NCBI GenBank assembly: GCA_903832665.1
Contig: CAILCG010000023.1
Coordinates: forward strand, 19,898 to 83,897
Reading direction: 5' to 3'
DNA from: an uncultured Methanomicrobiales archaeon
Lineage (GTDB): Archaea > Halobacteriota > Methanomicrobia > Methanomicrobiales > Methanospirillaceae
Length of the DNA: 64,000 bases
The notes under the pieces were generated by a model. It searched no databases. It was not told the DNA's origin and saw only the letters and a list, made by a program, of their open reading frames with translations. Positions 15,543-24,984 of the stretch are shown here, piece by piece. The position numbers were made by a program, and so were the translations under genes. Position 1 is the stretch's first letter, and every line of letters starts with the position of its first letter.

Positions 15543-16415
15543 CAGATCAAAGTCTGATTGAAAAATCGTAATCAAGATCTGATTAATCCGGAAATATTTT
15601 TCAACCACGATCGGGATCGCGATGCAATTTTTTCCGGCAAGGTCCGGTTATTTTTTTTCAATTAAAGTCTGCTGAAAAAAATAAAATCAAAGTATGGTTG
15701 AAATATTTTAAGCAAAGTCTGATGTAAAAAAATTTACCAGACTCTGCTTGAAAAATATAAATCAAGATCCGATTGAAAAATTTCAAGCAGGGTCTGGTTG
15801 CTTTTCCGGGGGGATGTTCACGCCGGAAGAACTGCATAGAATCCATATTTCATTCAAGGTCCGGTTATTTTTTTTCTACCAGAGTCTGCTTAAAAAATTG
15901 AAATCAAAGTCTGCCTGAAACTTTTCAATCAAAGTCCGGTCTTTATTTTTCAATCAAAGTCTGCTCAAAATTTTGAGAGCACGATCTGATTGTGAATTTC
16001 AAATCATGGTCTGATTGATCCGGATCAATGTTTCAATCAGGCTTATGATCGCGATGAAAAATTTTCAATCAGGATCCGATTCGAAAATTAAAATCAAAGT
16101 CTGCTTCAAAAATTCGAAATCGGGATCCCTTTTGAGATTCTCAAACCAGGATTGGATTACCGTACCTGAAGGAGGTTACGTCGGAACCTGCGATCCCGAA
16201 TCTTTTTGAGAACAAGATCCAAGGGAAGATCGATTGATCTGAATCGACTTTTCCCATTTTCTTTCATGATCGCGGTCAAGATTGTGCAATCGGGATCCGA
16301 TTTGAAAATCAATATCAAAGTCTGCTTCAAAATTTAAAATCAAGGTTCGCCCGGAAATTTTCAATCAAGGTATGGTTGAAAAATTAAAATCAAAGTCCGG
16401 GTAAAAAATTTCATT
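15543..16415. repeat. Degenerate 25-bp tandem repeat array (about 28 copies), gene-free
   Basis: Aligning on the core TCTG/TCCG gives successive distances of exactly 25 bases for long runs (for example 15643-15793 and 15860-16010), with a few units shifted by 1 or separated by short insertions. The consensus core is CAATC-AAAGTCT-GATTG, a dyad of 5-8 bp around a 7-base centre, joined by an A/T-rich linker. Copies differ at many positions, so the array is old. The period is not a multiple of three and all frames contain stops, so it is not protein coding. No unique spacers, so it is not CRISPR. Flanked by the CDF gene and the HepT gene. Confidence 0.85.
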
Positions 16416-16481
16416 GGGAGATCGAAAGGTTCTCCACGAAACGGTGACCCTATCCTGAATCACCGCGGGTATGATATCAGG

Positions 16482-16859
16482 TCACGGTTTGCCCGACGCG
16501 GGGCGATGGTGAGGGGATGATGCCTCCAGTTCCTTAAGAAGAGCGGAGATTTTCGGTTCGATTTCCGGGAGATCGTCGGTGATAACACTCCAGACGATGG
16601 AATAATCAATCCGTAAATACCCGTGGATGATCTTGTCCCGGAGTGCGGCCATATCGTGCCAGGGAATATCCTGATGGGGTTGTTTGATCGAATCCGGGAC
16701 ATTTTTCGAGGCTTCACCGATCACTTCAATCGCGCTTCTGACCGCGTGCGCAAAATAATCACCGTTGATGAGATCGTCGAGTGTCCGGTCTTTCGCGATC
16801 TTTCTCAAAAAAACGATCTCATCAAGGATATGGCGGATCCAGACCAGATCATCCTTCAA
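16482..16859 (-). CDS. HepT-like HEPN RNase toxin (DUF86)
   Basis: 125 residues, all helical, with the HEPN active motif R-x4-H-x-Y seen as RDKIIHGY near residue 83. Family relatives are ribonuclease toxins neutralised by a MNT-type nucleotidyltransferase that AMPylates the motif tyrosine. The partner gene lies immediately upstream and overlaps by 11 bases, the usual antitoxin-first arrangement. Could serve as a stress or antiphage toxin-antitoxin module. Confidence 0.9.
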   Translation of the reverse strand: MKDDLVWIRHILDEIVFLRKIAKDRTLDDLINGDYFAHAVRSAIEVIGEASKNVPDSIKQPHQDIPWHDMAALRDKIIHGYLRIDYSIVWSVITDDLPEIEPKISALLKELEASSPHHRPASGKP

Positions 16860-17172
16860 TCCAGATCACCTCAGCCTCAACATGGGAACGAATGTATTTA
16901 TCAATCCCTCCCACCGTGAGCAGATCGACTTTGCGCCGGAACAGGGTTTCGAGATTGTCGGAGAGACTAACAAAGTTGCGGAGAGTGGCATATCCCTGTG
17001 CAAAATCGACAAGCACATCCACATCGCTTTTGGGCGTCTGCTCTCCGCGGGCAAACGAGCCGAAGATGCCGATCTTTGTCACGCCAAATTGAGTGCGGAT
17101 AGCCGGGGCTGCGGTTTCAAACTTTCTCTGGACAATGCTTTTCCTCCGCTGCGATACGAGCTGGCCGGGCAT
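16849..17172 (-). CDS. MntA-like minimal nucleotidyltransferase antitoxin
   Basis: 107 residues with the minimal nucleotidyltransferase signature GIFGSFARGEQTPKSDVDVLVDF: the GSF-x-RGE loop and the paired Asp residues DVD that bind metal. It is the antitoxin half of a MntA-HepT pair, expected to AMPylate the HEPN toxin. It is first in the two-gene operon. Confidence 0.9.
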   Translation of the reverse strand: MPGQLVSQRRKSIVQRKFETAAPAIRTQFGVTKIGIFGSFARGEQTPKSDVDVLVDFAQGYATLRNFVSLSDNLETLFRRKVDLLTVGGIDKYIRSHVEAEVIWIEG

Positions 17173-17316: not shown

Positions 17317-17405
17317 CCTTACATCACGCAATCCCGCAAACCCGTTTCCGCACATGATATGAGGCGGTGGGGATTTCACGGAACGGGGCGGGCGCAGATA
17401 ATAGG
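17317..17405. repeat. Dispersed GC-rich repeat, copy A (short)
   Basis: Shares about 85-90 bases with copies at 19154-19295 and 20150-20290, including the block ATCCCGCAAACCC and TTTCCGCACATGATATGAGG. The rest of the 17173-17518 gap shows nothing coding. Confidence 0.75.
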
Positions 17406-17481
17406 AGCAAAAAAGGCGATATTACAGCAACCGATTCTTCGAAGGCAATTTCAAAAAGGGAATGTGACAACTGAATGTAAA

Positions 17482-17539
17482 TGTCGGGATTGTCGGGCTA
17501 ATGTCGGGATTGTCGGGATTATGTCGGGCTAATGTCGGG
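17482..17539. repeat. Short tandem repeat with TGTCGGG core (six copies)
   Basis: TGTCGGG recurs at 17482, 17491, 17502, 17511, 17522 and 17533, spacing 9 or 11, that is roughly three 20-base units. It overlaps the 3' end and stop codon of the AlbA-domain gene, where it encodes the tail residues NPDISPT. Confidence 0.8.
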
Positions 17540-18916
17540 ATTCTTTTTCACCAGAACATACTCAGTAGCCCTGCCCTTCTTATCCCGTTTCAAGAAAATA
17601 CCCTTCATGCAAAGATCATTCAAGTCCCGGAGAGCGGTCCGATCAATAGCACCGGTAAGTTCCCGGTACGCTTTATTCGTGATTACGCCCTGCTCTCTGA
17701 CATACCGTACGGCTTGAACCTGCCGTTCCGAAAACCCGAGCGCAAGAAGTCTCTCATCCGTGTAGAAATCTTTAGAGAAGGTTACACTGAACCAATCCGG
17801 ATGTGCAGAAAACTCTGGTTCAGGTATACCATGATTCTGACAGAGGGTAATCATGCGACTCGTGCCCGTGCCCCACTTCTCCAGCAATTCCCCGTAATAA
17901 AAAACCTGGGCGAGCAGTGTATTTCGCGGTAGTGAACGATGTCCCTCCTGACGGAGTTCATCGACCGTCATCCCTCCCGTAAGACCCCCGGGATTCGTAA
18001 TCACGACGCGGTCATCGTAGACTCGGATCTGGATCTCGGCACCGGTCTGGAAATAATCCCGGTGAATAAGCGCATTGATCACCGCTTCACGCAAGGCTGT
18101 GATTGGGTAATCCCATATCTCGGTTCGTTGCATTGCAGACAGTGATTCTGTTTTGTCCGGCTTTCCATCGAATTCATACCGGACCTGCATATATTGCTGG
18201 AACAGTTGCACCGCTGCATCCACCTGTAAGAAGAGATTGCCTTTCAGAATTTTGTCATCAATGATGGTGATGGCGTCTTTGAAACGGCCCATGTGTATCT
18301 GAGCAGAGGTGAACGATGCCTGAGGATTTTTCCCGAACAGCAGTATCGCACCACGGGTGATTTTTCCGTCATGGACTAATTCCAGTTTTTGCAGGAGGCT
18401 CTCAACAGATTCATCATCGCGGGCAAACGGGAGCCGGTTTTTTGCAAGTTCGAGAAAGCGCTTTACCGCTGCGGGATCGATCTGCTCAAGAGTATAGTTG
18501 TCAGCGATGCTGTCCCACTGAACACCAAGTTTTGCAATGAAGTAACGCCCCAGCTGCTCGGCCGGGATCTCGCGGGTTGTGTTGCCTACCCGCTGAAAAT
18601 ACCTGCCCCGGCATGTGGCAAGAGTTGTACCGGGCCTGACTTCGATCACAAGCACGGATTTTTTCATTTCCTGCTGGATAGAGACCGATGGCTGGACCCG
18701 GAGAATTTCGACAATCTGGTTGATGATGGTCTGCTGTGCCCGGTCATCACCGGTCCACCCGATGACTGCTCCGTTATCCCTCACTCCGATAAGGAGGGTC
18801 CCTCCTTTGGTATTTACGAATGACGCGAGCGCTTCAAGGCCGTGGTCGTTCCACTGCTCCTTGAATTCCACGTTCTCGCTTTCGCCATGCCGGATAAGTG
18901 CAGTGAGATTGTCCAT
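17519..18916 (-). CDS. AlbA_2/Schlafen-like ATP-binding regulator (COG2865 type)
   Basis: 465 residues. The N-terminal AlbA_2 domain shows ESENVEFKEQW and NTKGGTLLIGVRDNGAVIG; the middle has the ATPase-like part with REAVINALIHRDY and NPGGLTGGMTVDEL; the C-terminal winged helix reads YRELTGAIDRTALRDLNDL. Members are usually called transcriptional regulators with a divergent ATPase, and many lie in mobile or defence regions. The last residues are encoded by a tandem repeat that continues past the stop, so tail length probably varies between strains. Transcribed alone. Confidence 0.8.
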   Translation of the reverse strand: MDNLTALIRHGESENVEFKEQWNDHGLEALASFVNTKGGTLLIGVRDNGAVIGWTGDDRAQQTIINQIVEILRVQPSVSIQQEMKKSVLVIEVRPGTTLATCRGRYFQRVGNTTREIPAEQLGRYFIAKLGVQWDSIADNYTLEQIDPAAVKRFLELAKNRLPFARDDESVESLLQKLELVHDGKITRGAILLFGKNPQASFTSAQIHMGRFKDAITIIDDKILKGNLFLQVDAAVQLFQQYMQVRYEFDGKPDKTESLSAMQRTEIWDYPITALREAVINALIHRDYFQTGAEIQIRVYDDRVVITNPGGLTGGMTVDELRQEGHRSLPRNTLLAQVFYYGELLEKWGTGTSRMITLCQNHGIPEPEFSAHPDWFSVTFSKDFYTDERLLALGFSERQVQAVRYVREQGVITNKAYRELTGAIDRTALRDLNDLCMKGIFLKRDKKGRATEYVLVKKNPDISPT

Positions 18917-19153
18917 TGGGCAGGTACTTCCGTTTAAAATCCTGTTTTTAGAGATACGGGCTAGTGTGTTATTGATTTATGCTTAATTACGGGAAAATGA
19001 GATGCCGGTCGCGGAGCCCGGTGCGAGCAGGCACACGAACTGTTGGAATCACCCAGCCGCGTCATCGGGGCATCGCTGGAAAAATCGAATCGGATAACCT
19101 GTTCCTGAACCGGCCACGAGGTGGCGCTCATTCATGGGCACGTCGTCCATCGC
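18917..19153. other. Intergenic DNA, left part of the repeat B spacer
   Basis: No convincing gene. Segments such as CATCGGGGC resemble sequence left of copy C near 20063, suggesting that the dispersed repeat extends further left in a degraded form. Confidence 0.4.
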
Positions 19154-19295
19154 CCCTGGGGGTATGGGGGCATCAGCCCCCATCTTTGTCCCACATCACC
19201 AATTCACCTTACCTCATACAATCCCGCAAACCCATTTCCGCACATGATATGAGGCGCGGGGATTTCGCGGTTGGGGGGCGGGTGCTGACAATAGG
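19154..19295. repeat. Dispersed GC-rich repeat, copy B (long)
   Basis: Contains a perfect hairpin (ATGGGGGC, ATCA loop, GCCCCCAT at 19164-19183) followed by the block shared with copies A and C. No ORF; surrounding DNA is AT-rich. Confidence 0.75.
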
Positions 19296-19901: not shown

Positions 19902-20149
19902 CTAATTCACCATACTTCAATTTTCTCAAATGTTTCCCAGTCGTAATACCATATGAATAATTAGCTTCAACATTTTTATAAAACCTTGTTATATCATCCA
20001 AAAAAGGACATGATGACAGAGTTGACTCTTACTTACTTTAAAAAAATGAGCATGTCGACCCCCATCGGGGCCTCACTGGGCAGGTCGATGGGGATTACCA
20101 GTGCCTGACCCGCTGCGGGGCGCCCCGTAGGGGGGGGCGGCGTTCATCA
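19902..20149. other. Intergenic AT-rich to GC-rich transition
   Basis: No gene seen. The first part is AT-rich with a TATA-like region upstream of the 19440-19901 gene; the second part is GC-rich and leads into repeat copy C. Confidence 0.35.
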
Positions 20150-20290
20150 AATCTGGGGGTATGGGGGCATCAGCCCTCATCTTTGTACTTCATCAATGAT
20201 TCCCCGTACGTCATGCAATCCCACAAACCTGTTTTTGCACTTGATATGAGGCGGTGGAGATTTCGCAGATGGGGGCGGGCGCTGACATGT
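20150..20290. repeat. Dispersed GC-rich repeat, copy C (long)
   Basis: Matches copy B over its whole length with substitutions, including the hairpin (one mismatch, ATGGGGGC with GCCCTCAT) and the ATGATATGAGGCGG block. Ends shortly before the promoter of the zinc-ribbon gene. Confidence 0.75.
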
Positions 20291-20375
20291 CAATTTTCAC
20301 TCGATTGACAAAACAGTATCCTTATCGTTTGAATCATCCATCAATGATTATCATAAAATGATGGGAGAAACGAGT

Positions 20376-21196
20376 ATGGCGAAATTCTGTCCCGAGTGTG
20401 CAAATCCAATTCTTGACGGTGAGAAGTTATTCTGCACAAAATGTGGTGCGAAACTTCCCATTACTTCTTCCGATGTGCAAAGTCCAATAACTCGACCGAT
20501 CGTAAGACAGCCACCGGGAGTTCCATCGCAAATTCAGTCTGGGAGCAAAGAACCAACAATACCTTCAGTTCAGAAATCTTTACAACAAAAACAAGATCCA
20601 ACTACAGAAAATACAAAAAAAACAACATCAGTAATAGAACAGAGCACTAATTGTTGTAGCAATAATACTTATGTTGGAATTGCTTTTTTAATTCTCATCT
20701 TTTTTTTGTTTTAGCATATGCCCTTACTGGCCATATCGGTAATGATTCTTTTTCTTCTAGTGATGTAAATAAGGATGTAATTATTACAAAAGATTTGAGT
20801 TCGATCGCATTAACAATCAATGATTTACCAACGGGATGGAAAACGTTCGGTGATGCTGAAATCTCAAAAGAAAAATATAGTAGTAAATTTGTCAGAGTTG
20901 AGGGACTGACTCCTTACTTTGTCTATCTTGATATTACCAGAAATTCCACTATCGACCAAGCGAAGACGGAATATACATCGAAACGGGCAGAAATCACACA
21001 ATATAAGGTAGAATCTGTGAATATCGGTGACGAAGGTTTTGGTTATGTGACGGAGGGCTCGTCTATAGTCGAATTCCGCAAAGGCAATATTATTGTGAGA
21101 ACGCAATATGGTGTCGGTGGTTTTGGTGGATCTTTCAGTTCCTTATCAATAAATGATGCAAAAACTTATGCAGACATTGTAGCAGGCAGAATTTAA
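20376..21196 (+). pseudogene. Zinc-ribbon membrane protein with extracellular domain, 1-base deletion
   Basis: Two ORFs (20358-20714 and 20795-21196) join into one protein of about 273 residues if one T is added to the eight-T run at 20700-20707. Parts: double CxxC zinc ribbon (CPECANP, CTKCGAK) at residues 4-28, a Pro/Gln/Thr-rich linker, one membrane helix that crosses the frameshift (ends FFVLAYALTG), and an outside domain beginning ALTINDLPTGW. Zinc-ribbon plus single helix plus outside domain is common in archaeal and bacterial membrane proteins of unknown role. The ATG at 20376 is the likely start, directly before the ribbon. AT-rich; convergent with the cyclase-like gene. Confidence 0.7.
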
Positions 21197-21351
21197 TATT
21201 CAATTTTTCTGATTTCGGATTTATATATAAAAAAAGATGCCGCGAACGCTACCCTTCACTTGTGCGTATAATACACCATAACCCCGTTATCCCAAGTTGC
21301 ATCAATTCAGTCATTATAGGTGACTTCCATCTCTGTTAATATGACGATACT

Positions 21352-22166
21352 TTATGCAACTTTTTTGTCGGAGTCTCGATAATATCTACCACTATTCTTA
21401 TACCATCTCGCAAATTCAAGAGAATTATCATATTTTGATTTGTATCTAGCATTCTCTGGTCGATCAGATTCTTCTATTAAAATTTGTAAGTATGGATTGT
21501 CCTTCTCGTTTTCTTCAACATGATAAGTTAATTGAGGCCATGATACAGTAAAAAATTGTTTTCTTGAGAATGTTTCAAGTTTATTTTTTTCGTTATGCAA
21601 GGGAATGTTACAAAGAACAAATTCTACTTCCCAATGTTTGATAATCTGATCTAATTGTAGATTCTTTCTTTTCGCGACAAATTCAAGCAATGAACGATAT
21701 TCACTTTGAAACTTAGGAGTTTTTATGACACCAATCCAATCAGTAATATCATGATGCCTATAAGCATCAGTCACCGCTTGACCGATTATTGTCACGTTTT
21801 TTGGTGAATCGTCGTAAATATATTCTCCAACAGAAATTGCTCCTCGTAAAAAAATTCGTTCCTCAAGTGCTAGATGAAGTATAGCTTTAACGATATTGCA
21901 TGCGCCGCAAAAAAAGTGTAAAGAATTTTCTTTTTGTTCTGGCCACCATAATATAATTGAATCTTGAAATGTCGCTATATTTGGTTTAAGTAATGATTTT
22001 TTAAGATCTTTTTGAAATTGTAAGTCCCATTTTTTCGCTACCTCTTCTAATCGGTCAACAATTCTATTTTTTTCTCAATAAAATCTCGACATTTATCCTG
22101 ATCATAGTCAGAAACACCTAATGCATCTAAAAAAACGACGACTCCATTATTTGTCTCAGTCCTCAT
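21352..22166 (-). pseudogene. Pycsar-type nucleotidyl cyclase-like protein, 1-base deletion
   Basis: The track shows only the C-terminal ORF (21352-21795). Reading upstream on the minus strand and adding one base to the seven-A run (plus-strand T7 at 22067-22073) gives an ORF of about 271 residues from ATG 22166. It shows VVVFLDALG, FQDSIIL, RGAISVGEYI and IIGQAVTDAYRHHD-x-x-DWIGV, in the order seen in PycC-like class III cyclases; the two Asp residues in the first two motifs match metal-binding positions. Such cyclases make cCMP or cUMP in antiphage Pycsar systems, though related proteins exist without known partner. No effector is in the same operon. The assignment rests on motif recall, not on a search. 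Confidence 0.55.
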
Positions 22167-22324: not shown

Positions 22325-24016
22325 TCACTTATGCGTATAATACGCCACGACCCCGTCATCCCAGGTCGCATCGATCTTCACAAACCCGACCCGCTCGAAC
22401 TGGATAACCTTCCCGAGTTCCGACCGGACCGCCGGCTCGCAGGCCCCCACCATATCCCCCTCCTGGGTTTTGATCGTACAGCCAACCGTTGCCTGTGCCG
22501 GCAGCCACTGCACGATATGCGCCTTCGCCGCCCGGGCATCCGCCAGCGAATCCCCCGCGTAGGTAAAGGTCGGGGTCTCCCCGTTCCAGCTGATCTTCAC
22601 ATTGAAGAGATCCTTGAGCCGCAGCATCGTTACCTCCGGTGAGATCTCGCTCTTCGGGAGAAGCACCGTGCCGGTAAACTCCAGCGTCCGGGTGCCCCGG
22701 GCAGCATCGCTCGGGTGCAGCATCGCATGCGCAGTATGGGGCTCGGCACCCTCGATCTTTGCGGTTACCGGGTCAGGGACAAAGAAATACCGGTTTGCCA
22801 CCGGGTCCACGATCTTCTTGTTCTCTGAGTACAGGTTGTCCCACGAGAACGAGATGTCCGTGTCCCCGATACCGATCGCCAGCATCGCGTTCTTGACGGC
22901 CTCGGGGCTGATTCCCCTCCGGGCAAGGGCCCGCAACGTGCCGAGACGGATATCATCCCAGCCACTGTAGGTGTCGTCATTGATGCCGAGCCGCATCTGG
23001 GACGTCGAGAGCACCACGCCCTCGATCCCCATCCGGCCATAGTGCCGGTACACCGGCACCTTCCAGCCGAAGTGATCGTAGATGTAGCGCTGGCGCCGCG
23101 TGTTGGCGATGTGATCCTTGCCCCGGATGACATGCGTGACCCCGAGGAGATGATCGTCCGCAACCACCGAGAAGTTCATCAGCGGATACACGTGGGCGAT
23201 CACCTTCGGGTGCGCCGGGGCCTCCAGGATACGGAACGCGGGGAAGTCCCGCATGGCCGGGTCCGGGTGGAGCAGGTCTGTCTTGATCCGGACCGAGGCC
23301 TCGCCCTCCTTGAACCCGTGGGTGAGCATCTTGTCCCAGAGTTCGAGATTCTTCTCAACGGACTGCTCCCGGCAGGGACACGCGGTCTTCTTGTTCTTGA
23401 GCTCCTTGAAGACCTCGTTGTCGCAGGTGCAGACATAGGCCCCGCCCCGCTCGATCAGCTGCGTGCAGAGGGCATAGTACAGGTGCAGGCGATCGCTCTG
23501 CGTCACGGTATCCGTGATCGCAAGACCGAGCCACCTGAGATCCTCGACCACCATCTCGTAGGCTTCGGGATCGACCCGCTTGGGATCGGTATCCTCGATG
23601 CGCAGGATATAGCGTCCGCCGTACTGCTTGATGTAGGCGTCATTGAGCGCTGCCGCCCGGGCATGCCCGATGTGGAGCGGACCCGAGGGATTGGGGGCAA
23701 ACCGCATCACGACGCCGTTCTCGGCACCTTCGAGATCCGGCAGCACCTTCTTGTGCTCGTGCTTCTCCGAGAGAGCCGCAAACATCTCGGGCGCTCGGGT
23801 CTGGAGGGTGGTCACGCGATCTTCGGGTGAAAGCGCCGCAACGTCAGCGATCGCTTCCTTTGCAAACGCAGAAACTTCCTTGGCCCGGCTCCGCAGTTCC
23901 GGGTGAGCTCCCATCACCATGCCGATCACGGCCCCGGCCTGGGGGACTCCGCCGTGTTTCACGGAGTTCTGGAGCGCACACAAAAAGAGGAGCTCTTTTG
24001 GATCTTCCTCTGCCAT
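22325..24016 (-). CDS. gltX: Glutamate--tRNA ligase (archaeal type)
   Basis: 563 residues from ATG 24016 (the track start is a TTG two codons earlier). Class I synthetase: HIGH motif in PSGPLHIGHARAA, KMSKS equivalent LSTSQMRLG, a cysteine-rich insertion (CTCDNEVF then CPCREQ) and the archaeal/eukaryotic-type beta-barrel anticodon domain. It charges tRNA-Glu, and in archaea lacking GlnRS only tRNA-Glu while Gln is made by GatDE. Last gene of the superoperon, two bases after the idsA stop. Confidence 0.97.
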   Translation of the reverse strand: MAEEDPKELLFLCALQNSVKHGGVPQAGAVIGMVMGAHPELRSRAKEVSAFAKEAIADVAALSPEDRVTTLQTRAPEMFAALSEKHEHKKVLPDLEGAENGVVMRFAPNPSGPLHIGHARAAALNDAYIKQYGGRYILRIEDTDPKRVDPEAYEMVVEDLRWLGLAITDTVTQSDRLHLYYALCTQLIERGGAYVCTCDNEVFKELKNKKTACPCREQSVEKNLELWDKMLTHGFKEGEASVRIKTDLLHPDPAMRDFPAFRILEAPAHPKVIAHVYPLMNFSVVADDHLLGVTHVIRGKDHIANTRRQRYIYDHFGWKVPVYRHYGRMGIEGVVLSTSQMRLGINDDTYSGWDDIRLGTLRALARRGISPEAVKNAMLAIGIGDTDISFSWDNLYSENKKIVDPVANRYFFVPDPVTAKIEGAEPHTAHAMLHPSDAARGTRTLEFTGTVLLPKSEISPEVTMLRLKDLFNVKISWNGETPTFTYAGDSLADARAAKAHIVQWLPAQATVGCTIKTQEGDMVGACEPAVRSELGKVIQFERVGFVKIDATWDDGVVAYYTHK

Positions 24017-24018
24017 GT

Positions 24019-24984
24019 TCAATAACTCCGGGTAACAAAAAATTCGCCGATGTCCATGAGGAGCTGGCGTTCTTTTGAGGCGGGGAGGAGCGAGAGATGC
24101 TTGTTGCTTGCGGTCACAAGATCCGCAGCCATCTGCTTGACCTCATCGATCACGCCGAAATCCGTGAGTTCCTTGATCGCTGCATCGATATCGGCTTTCG
24201 AGAGCTCGCGCCGGTATTTCTGCAGGTCGATGCCCTTCTCCCGGGCTTTGATCATGATGATCGTCTGCTTGCCTTCCCGCAAGTCGGACGCCTGGTCCTT
24301 GCCGCTCTGTTCTGAGGGCGTGAGCAGGTCAATGAGATCATCCTGGATCTGGAACGCGATACCGGTGTTCAGCCCGAAATTATAGAGAGCCTTGACCTGC
24401 GGGGCAGTGCCCCCGGCAAGAACGCCGCCGATACCGGCTGCTGCTGCGTACAGCACGCCGGTCTTCTTCCGCACCATCTCGATGTACTCGTACTCGCTCA
24501 CATCATTGCGGTGCTCGAAGGACATGTCCATGTGCTGGCCCGCACAGATATCGGCGCAGGCCTTGGCGAGCATGGTGACCGACCGCACTTTTGATGCATC
24601 GGTGGCCGTTGCCAGGCAGATATACTCGAACGCCCGGGCATAGAGCACATCGCCGGCAAGGATGCCGGTCGGCATATCCCATTTCGTGTGGACGGTCTGG
24701 ACCCCCCGGCGCAGGTGGTCGTCATCCATGATATCATCGTGGATGAGGGTGAATGTGTGCGTGATCTCGAGCGCAAGTGCCGCATGCATGATATCATCGG
24801 AACTTCCGGGTTTCACTGCATCTGCCGAGAGCATGACAACAGCCGGGCGAAGTCGTTTGCCGCCGGCTGCGAGCAGGTGGGCCGAAGCCTTGTTCAGTTC
24901 GCCGACCGTGTCGACGAAATACCGGTCGATCATGCGGTCGATCTGTGCTGCAACCGATTCCAGGTACGGGGAAAGTTCCGACAT
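24019..24984 (-). CDS. idsA: Polyprenyl (geranyl/farnesylgeranyl) diphosphate synthase
   Basis: 321 residues with first Asp-rich motif DDIMDDDHLRRG and second DDLIDL, both Mg-diphosphate binding. It makes geranylgeranyl (or C25) diphosphate for archaeal ether lipids from IPP and DMAPP. Context supports this: mvk, ipk and fni sit upstream in the same operon. Chain length cannot be fixed from the motif alone. Confidence 0.93.
   Translation of the reverse strand: MSELSPYLESVAAQIDRMIDRYFVDTVGELNKASAHLLAAGGKRLRPAVVMLSADAVKPGSSDDIMHAALALEITHTFTLIHDDIMDDDHLRRGVQTVHTKWDMPTGILAGDVLYARAFEYICLATATDASKVRSVTMLAKACADICAGQHMDMSFEHRNDVSEYEYIEMVRKKTGVLYAAAAGIGGVLAGGTAPQVKALYNFGLNTGIAFQIQDDLIDLLTPSEQSGKDQASDLREGKQTIIMIKAREKGIDLQKYRRELSKADIDAAIKELTDFGVIDEVKQMAADLVTASNKHLSLLPASKERQLLMDIGEFFVTRSY

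Follow-up and report, generated by a model that had tools for sequence, protein, structure and literature searches.

A frameshift-split class III cyclase-like gene at an archaeal gltX hotspot, and its relatives in restriction and Shango operons

The window analysed here, a stretch of 64,000 nucleotides from an uncultured Methanomicrobiales archaeon, carries two overlapping reading frames next to gltX that an initial annotation had joined into one Pycsar-like nucleotidyl cyclase. This locus raises the questions of whether the two frames are truly one gene, to which family its protein belongs, and what that family might do. The features concerned are listed in Table 1.

Table 1. Features of the cyclase-like locus in the window
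Feature	Coordinates	Strand	Remarks
Class III-fold cyclase-like gene, frameshift-split	21352..22166	-	N frame 22166-22047, C frame 22074-21352
A7 run, meeting point of the two frames	22067..22073	-	
gltX (glutamyl-tRNA synthetase)	22325..24022	-	Core gene directly upstream of the cyclase-like gene; 3' end is an insertion hotspot
gltX 3' end, one arm of att-like direct repeat	22325..22375	-	51 bp, 84% identical, E 2e-10
Second copy of gltX 3' end, other repeat arm	21256..21306	-	Bounds the cyclase cassette

A split gene in a gltX-bounded cassette

The N-terminal frame begins with an ATG at 22166, reads MRTETNNGVVVFLDALGVSDYDQDKCRDFIEKKIELLTD and encodes MRTETNNGVVVFLDALGVSDYDQDKCRDFIEK ahead of a stop at 22049, and the C-terminal frame runs through 240 open codons from 22074 to its stop at 21352 and contains FQDSIIL, RGAISVGE and IIGQAVTDAY. 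In the ORF listing, the gene is represented only by a 147-aa GTG ORF (21352-21795), as the initial annotation had stated in reporting that just the C-terminal half was visible. For database comparisons, both frames were joined with an X at the joint; no base was restored, and the resulting read-through served as a search string only. This query matched an unbroken 275-aa frame in another Methanoregula genome (E 6e-58). When the halves were searched separately, the same intact proteins were found in the correct order, at 62% identity (E 3e-11) for the N half and at 40% (E 2e-50) for the C half, and each half matched intact single-ORF homologues such as a Methanoregula gene at 42% identity. Because the read-through and each half match the same intact homologues, the split is not a chance arrangement of frames. 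The frameshift that had been proposed at the seven-A run is thus confirmed as real in the assembly, with the two frames meeting at that run. Programmed frameshifting at the A7 run was considered and rejected, given that the closest homologue is a single frame without such a run and the feature is therefore not conserved.

Homopolymers of at least seven bases occur 51 times in the window; the majority of those within real genes leave the frame open, as do four further ones within the cyclase-like gene itself. Since most long homopolymers in real genes are tolerated, there is no general homopolymer problem in the window, a finding that speaks against an overall fault of the assembly. The window copy has one lesion only and keeps every family-invariant residue, from which it follows that the gene was intact until recently, or is intact in the living organism. 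As written, the copy is probably not functional, or is poorly expressed, owing to the frameshift. It is an even call whether the copy is ordinary decayed mobile cargo, functionless in this genome, with the frameshift a true mutation. Such decay would fit the finding that the island holds two split genes whereas core-gene homopolymers are tolerated, and that the relative in genome G053 also has a broken N-terminus, but a single lesion followed by 240 open codons with the invariant residues kept argues against it. Decay of this kind concerns the copy and not the family, and can be combined with the explanation preferred below. The other split gene encodes a zinc-ribbon membrane protein (20358-21196, plus strand), lies 1 kb from the cyclase-like gene and is apparently interrupted at a T8 run.

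The two arms of the gltX repeat lie about 1.07 kb apart and enclose the cyclase-like gene. In many relatives, core genes follow gltX almost directly. The sister genome G130 carries McrBC at the gltX 3' site, and G053 has a 7.4-kb insert with PDC-M41-like genes (a candidate defence system) bounded by a 106-bp gltX copy (90.6%). Given the repeat arms and the defence cargo in sisters, the cyclase-like gene is a cassette of one gene, placed at a hotspot for defence genes. Two nearby small membrane genes had been suggested as partners of the cyclase; both lie outside the interval that the gltX repeat encloses, one has a convergent orientation, and neither has a counterpart in the fetched neighbourhoods of intact relatives, so the pairing is not upheld.

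Several other features were observed around this locus. The gltX 3' end in L085 (G130), L076 (G053) and L086 (G097) is a variable Methanoregula hotspot holding McrBC, PDC-M41-like and other cargo. A non-coding, GC-rich dispersed repeat is present in the window at 20063-20290, 19063-19290 and 17317-17406, with 28 matches in this genome, many in further genomes of the genus and none in the other genera searched. Positions 15640-16420 hold an intergenic array of degenerate repeats of about 22 bp (ATCAAAGTCTG-like). On the minus strand, 16482-17172 encodes a HepT-like RNase and a nucleotidyltransferase-like antitoxin (a typical MNT-HEPN pair), and 17519-18916 a protein with Schlafen AlbA_2 and RecG-C-like ATPase domains, of which sister genome G130 has a 94.6% identical copy.

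Predicted fold, family and distance from Pycsar

The fold was assessed from AlphaFold2 models of intact homologues, one per branch of the family, rather than from the broken window copy. The G068 homologue was modelled with a pLDDT of 87.1 and a pTM of 0.85, and a member of the separate LDILGWKGIW subfamily with a pLDDT of 85.7. When both models were compared with the PDB by Foldseek, all matches listed at E<=0.001 were class III adenylyl, guanylyl or pyrimidine cyclases. The best E values were 9e-7 and 1e-7, the best matches being canonical class III enzymes (PF00211; CyaC 1wc1/2bw7, Rv1900c 1ybt), and PycC 8jsf was found at 1.5e-5; TM-scores were moderate (0.4-0.5 by query length). Profile-profile comparison with class III and archaeal PycC proteins gave a score of 32.6 (E 8e-4), whereas 150 column shuffles reached at most 20.9 and the reversed profile scored 13.0; in the alignment, both Asp positions (Asp1 and Asp2) and the glycine motifs were in register. 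Searches of PDB sequences with the protein and with the profile returned noise only, and Foldseek against viral structures gave only weak matches to giant-virus proteins. Judged by these models, the family is shown to have the class III nucleotidyl cyclase fold.

In an alignment of 20 sequences, D14, G17, D69, G109, G114, G129 and G146 were conserved in all 20, and R108 and W144 in 19. Both metal-site Asp residues (D14 and D69), LG, RG-x-x-x-x-G, G129 and W-x-G are thus kept with at most one exception per position. Shared with canonical class III cyclases, and in register, are Asp1 in FLD-LG, Asp2 in a beta-hairpin, RG-IS-G and lGpAV; the family differs in having no match to Pfam PF00211, in an extra conserved W-x-G-V-I and C-terminal K/F region, and in the transition-state Asn and Arg (VN-x-x-x-R), which are variable in the family by both alignment and hhalign register. 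The fetched archaeal PycC-like proteins also vary at these positions, most keeping the Asn and not the Arg. Because the canonical Asn and Arg are not conserved, the protein may be one that binds a nucleotide but does not cyclise it.

Is the family, then, a branch of Pycsar? The initial annotation was borne out on several points: its motif order and both metal-site Asp residues hold, the class III structural match that it had named as a check was found for the two modelled homologues, and, as it had stated, no cyclic-nucleotide-binding or TIR effector adjoins the gene. Its assignment to PycC does not stand. PADLOC PycC models matched no member of the family, yet four of five ordinary class III proteins run as a positive control matched 10-13 of these models, with best values of 1e-25 or better. 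G351 carries a strong PycC match (2e-94) and, elsewhere, a family member, and the PycC model detects only the PycC gene or genes. Class III and PycC profiles match each other at E 8e-20, whereas the family matches class III plus PycC at just 8e-4, so that its distance from PycC is much larger than that of PycC from ordinary class III. By sequence, the family is distinct from PycC. It resembles PycC clades A-E in its class III fold, two metal-site Asp residues and defence setting, and some relatives adjoin a membrane-protein gene; unlike Pycsar, it lacks a PycC model match and a cyclic-nucleotide-binding effector, and its members are embedded in restriction or Shango operons or stand alone. That the family is nonetheless a divergent clade of true PycC, with cCMP or cUMP as its signal to a linked PycTM or PycTIR effector, is very improbable. 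The fold, the PycC structures among the Foldseek matches, and the order of cyclase then membrane gene in L038 and L027 would agree with it, but the missing model matches and the profile distances do not, no PycTM, TIR or cyclic-nucleotide-binding effector is linked to the gene in the window, and the membrane protein of L038 matches nothing in Pfam or PADLOC. Nor is an archaeal source new in itself, since archaeal pyrimidine (PycC-like) cyclases are already reported (PMC8646023, citing Tal et al.). Archaeal cCMP and cUMP are also reported, and unknown makers of them in archaea have been proposed (PMC8646023).

Two observations concern other cyclases. Archaeal PycC-like genes occur in adjacent pairs in L125/L134 (G351) and L127/L135 (G334). 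In Heliobacterium chlorum, L106:493-2028 encodes a PF00211 class III cyclase domain and, after it, a CBASS-type oligonucleotide-cyclase domain (PADLOC 5e-29).

The cyclase-like family is not covered by any model in the Pfam, NCBIfam and PADLOC copies searched here, and scans based on these models would miss it. Of 39 genomes in the genus, 8 carry a relative (the window's own included), as do 15 of 394 in the phylum, with scattered bacterial relatives in Coatesbacteria, Heliobacterium, Thermincola, Sorangium and Lentisphaerae, and a TPR fusion in Fusobacterium. A first scan of viral sequences with the broken protein gave no match; profile scans later found members on four viral contigs. Searches of plasmid and phage records gave a single match, from Fusobacterium. 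The 2.1-Mb Fusobacterium record L040 (NZ_CP084075.1), which carries a TPR-cyclase fusion, is filed as a plasmid and is apparently a chromosome. The tree has two branches: an LDALG branch (fork support 87/93), in which the window gene groups with the Shango-linked member, the G162 member and one proviral copy, and an LD(I/V)LGWKGI branch of bacteria, two methanogens and prophages. Weak matches to SUKH_6, Csx1 and MsyB were single and mutually inconsistent and were discarded.

Neighbourhoods of intact relatives

The genomic context of the relatives supports a role in defence. In G068, the family member is the fourth gene of a Shango operon and overlaps sngC by 4 bp. Type I restriction operons carry members, inside or at their end, in three archaea and one bacterium. 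G328 and G351 have a complete operon in which the member sits between HsdS and HsdR (HsdM-HsdS-[M1E1E6-like]-cyclase-HsdR, the partner being fused to the cyclase in G328); in G189, it follows HsdR at the operon end; and in Lentisphaerae, HsdS is followed by an M1E1E6-like gene, the cyclase and a 4-TM gene. The M1E1E6-like integron cassette protein (PF21648) is often upstream of, or fused to, the cyclase in the bacterial, methanogen and prophage branch, whereas the window gene and its nearest relatives are without it. In G032, genes for a PLD-type helicase and an SMC-like ATPase precede the member. No recognised defence gene was found beside the members in G162, G204, Thermincola, Heliobacterium and Sorangium.

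Two proviral copies form small cassettes. In provirus L038, the cyclase and a 2-TM gene lie between PAAR-like and sheath-initiator genes, and in prophage L138 an M1E1E6-like gene, the cyclase and a gene for a 240-aa protein lie between lysis-like genes and an integrase. Partners vary from locus to locus. The 2-TM protein of L038, a candidate effector, matches neither Pfam nor PADLOC models, has no known domain and is without relatives in 60 genomes or the other viral contigs; consequently, no conserved effector could be shown. The 4-TM gene of L027 gave no convincing Pfam match. The 240-aa protein adjoining the prophage cyclase (L138:4648-5370) has no Pfam match and is a candidate effector. 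The gene directly downstream of the Thermincola cyclase (L025:8866-11304) was also considered as an effector and set aside; it encodes a cyclic-nucleotide-binding, AAA and Fer4 protein, possibly an unrelated regulator.

Could these genes have originated as viral weapons? A provirus gene for counter-defence or superinfection exclusion, disturbing host nucleotide signalling and later captured by hosts, would account for members on four viral contigs and for a hotspot site typical of mobile cargo, but some copies are built into restriction and Shango operons of the host, where reading frames overlap, and this origin is highly unlikely.

A possible alarm in DNA-targeting defence

Our preferred reading, with a probability of about 0.5, is that the window gene is one of a set of class III-fold nucleotidyl cyclase-like proteins that take part in defence and form an uncatalogued family. 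The analysis shows the fold, the two conserved Asp residues and, in relatives, operons or cassettes that tie the family to type I restriction, Shango and proviruses. The family is most likely a metal-dependent nucleotidyl cyclase that would make an alarm nucleotide for a defence module. The protein would bind a nucleoside triphosphate with Mg or Mn and act as a dimer; triggered by a DNA-targeting defence complex or by infection, it would make a cyclic mononucleotide, and this product would activate a separate effector, for example the membrane or other small protein encoded alongside in some relatives. The window copy is a one-gene insertion at the gltX 3' hotspot without a linked effector.

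The main rival is that the family is a catalytically degenerate class III fold that binds a nucleotide and serves DNA-targeting defence complexes (type I restriction, Shango) as a regulatory subunit or sensor, and is not a messenger enzyme. Members within HsdS-HsdR operons or coupled to sngC, the fusion to the M1E1E6-like domain and the absence of the transition-state Asn and Arg of canonical enzymes all point that way. However, both metal-site Asp residues are invariant across highly divergent sequences, where a bare binding scaffold would need less, and proviral copies occur without restriction-modification genes; we consider a purely regulatory subunit rather unlikely.

What is new is the separate family and its linkage to restriction and Shango, for which no earlier description was found in the literature searched. 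To our knowledge, restriction-modification and Shango are not known to use cyclic-nucleotide signalling, and the literature searched held no report of it. Tentatively, and with some doubt, non-Pycsar class III-fold cyclases may give DNA-targeting defence (type I restriction and Shango) a second-messenger arm in archaea and bacteria, and could also be one of the missing suppliers of archaeal cCMP and cUMP. If so, type I restriction or Shango systems meeting foreign DNA would also set off a cyclic-nucleotide alarm, and the conserved cyclase-like gene in their operons would connect restriction with nucleotide signalling. The family also offers candidates for the makers of cCMP and cUMP proposed for archaea (PMC8646023), and hints that more defence systems than now recognised may employ chemical alarm signals.
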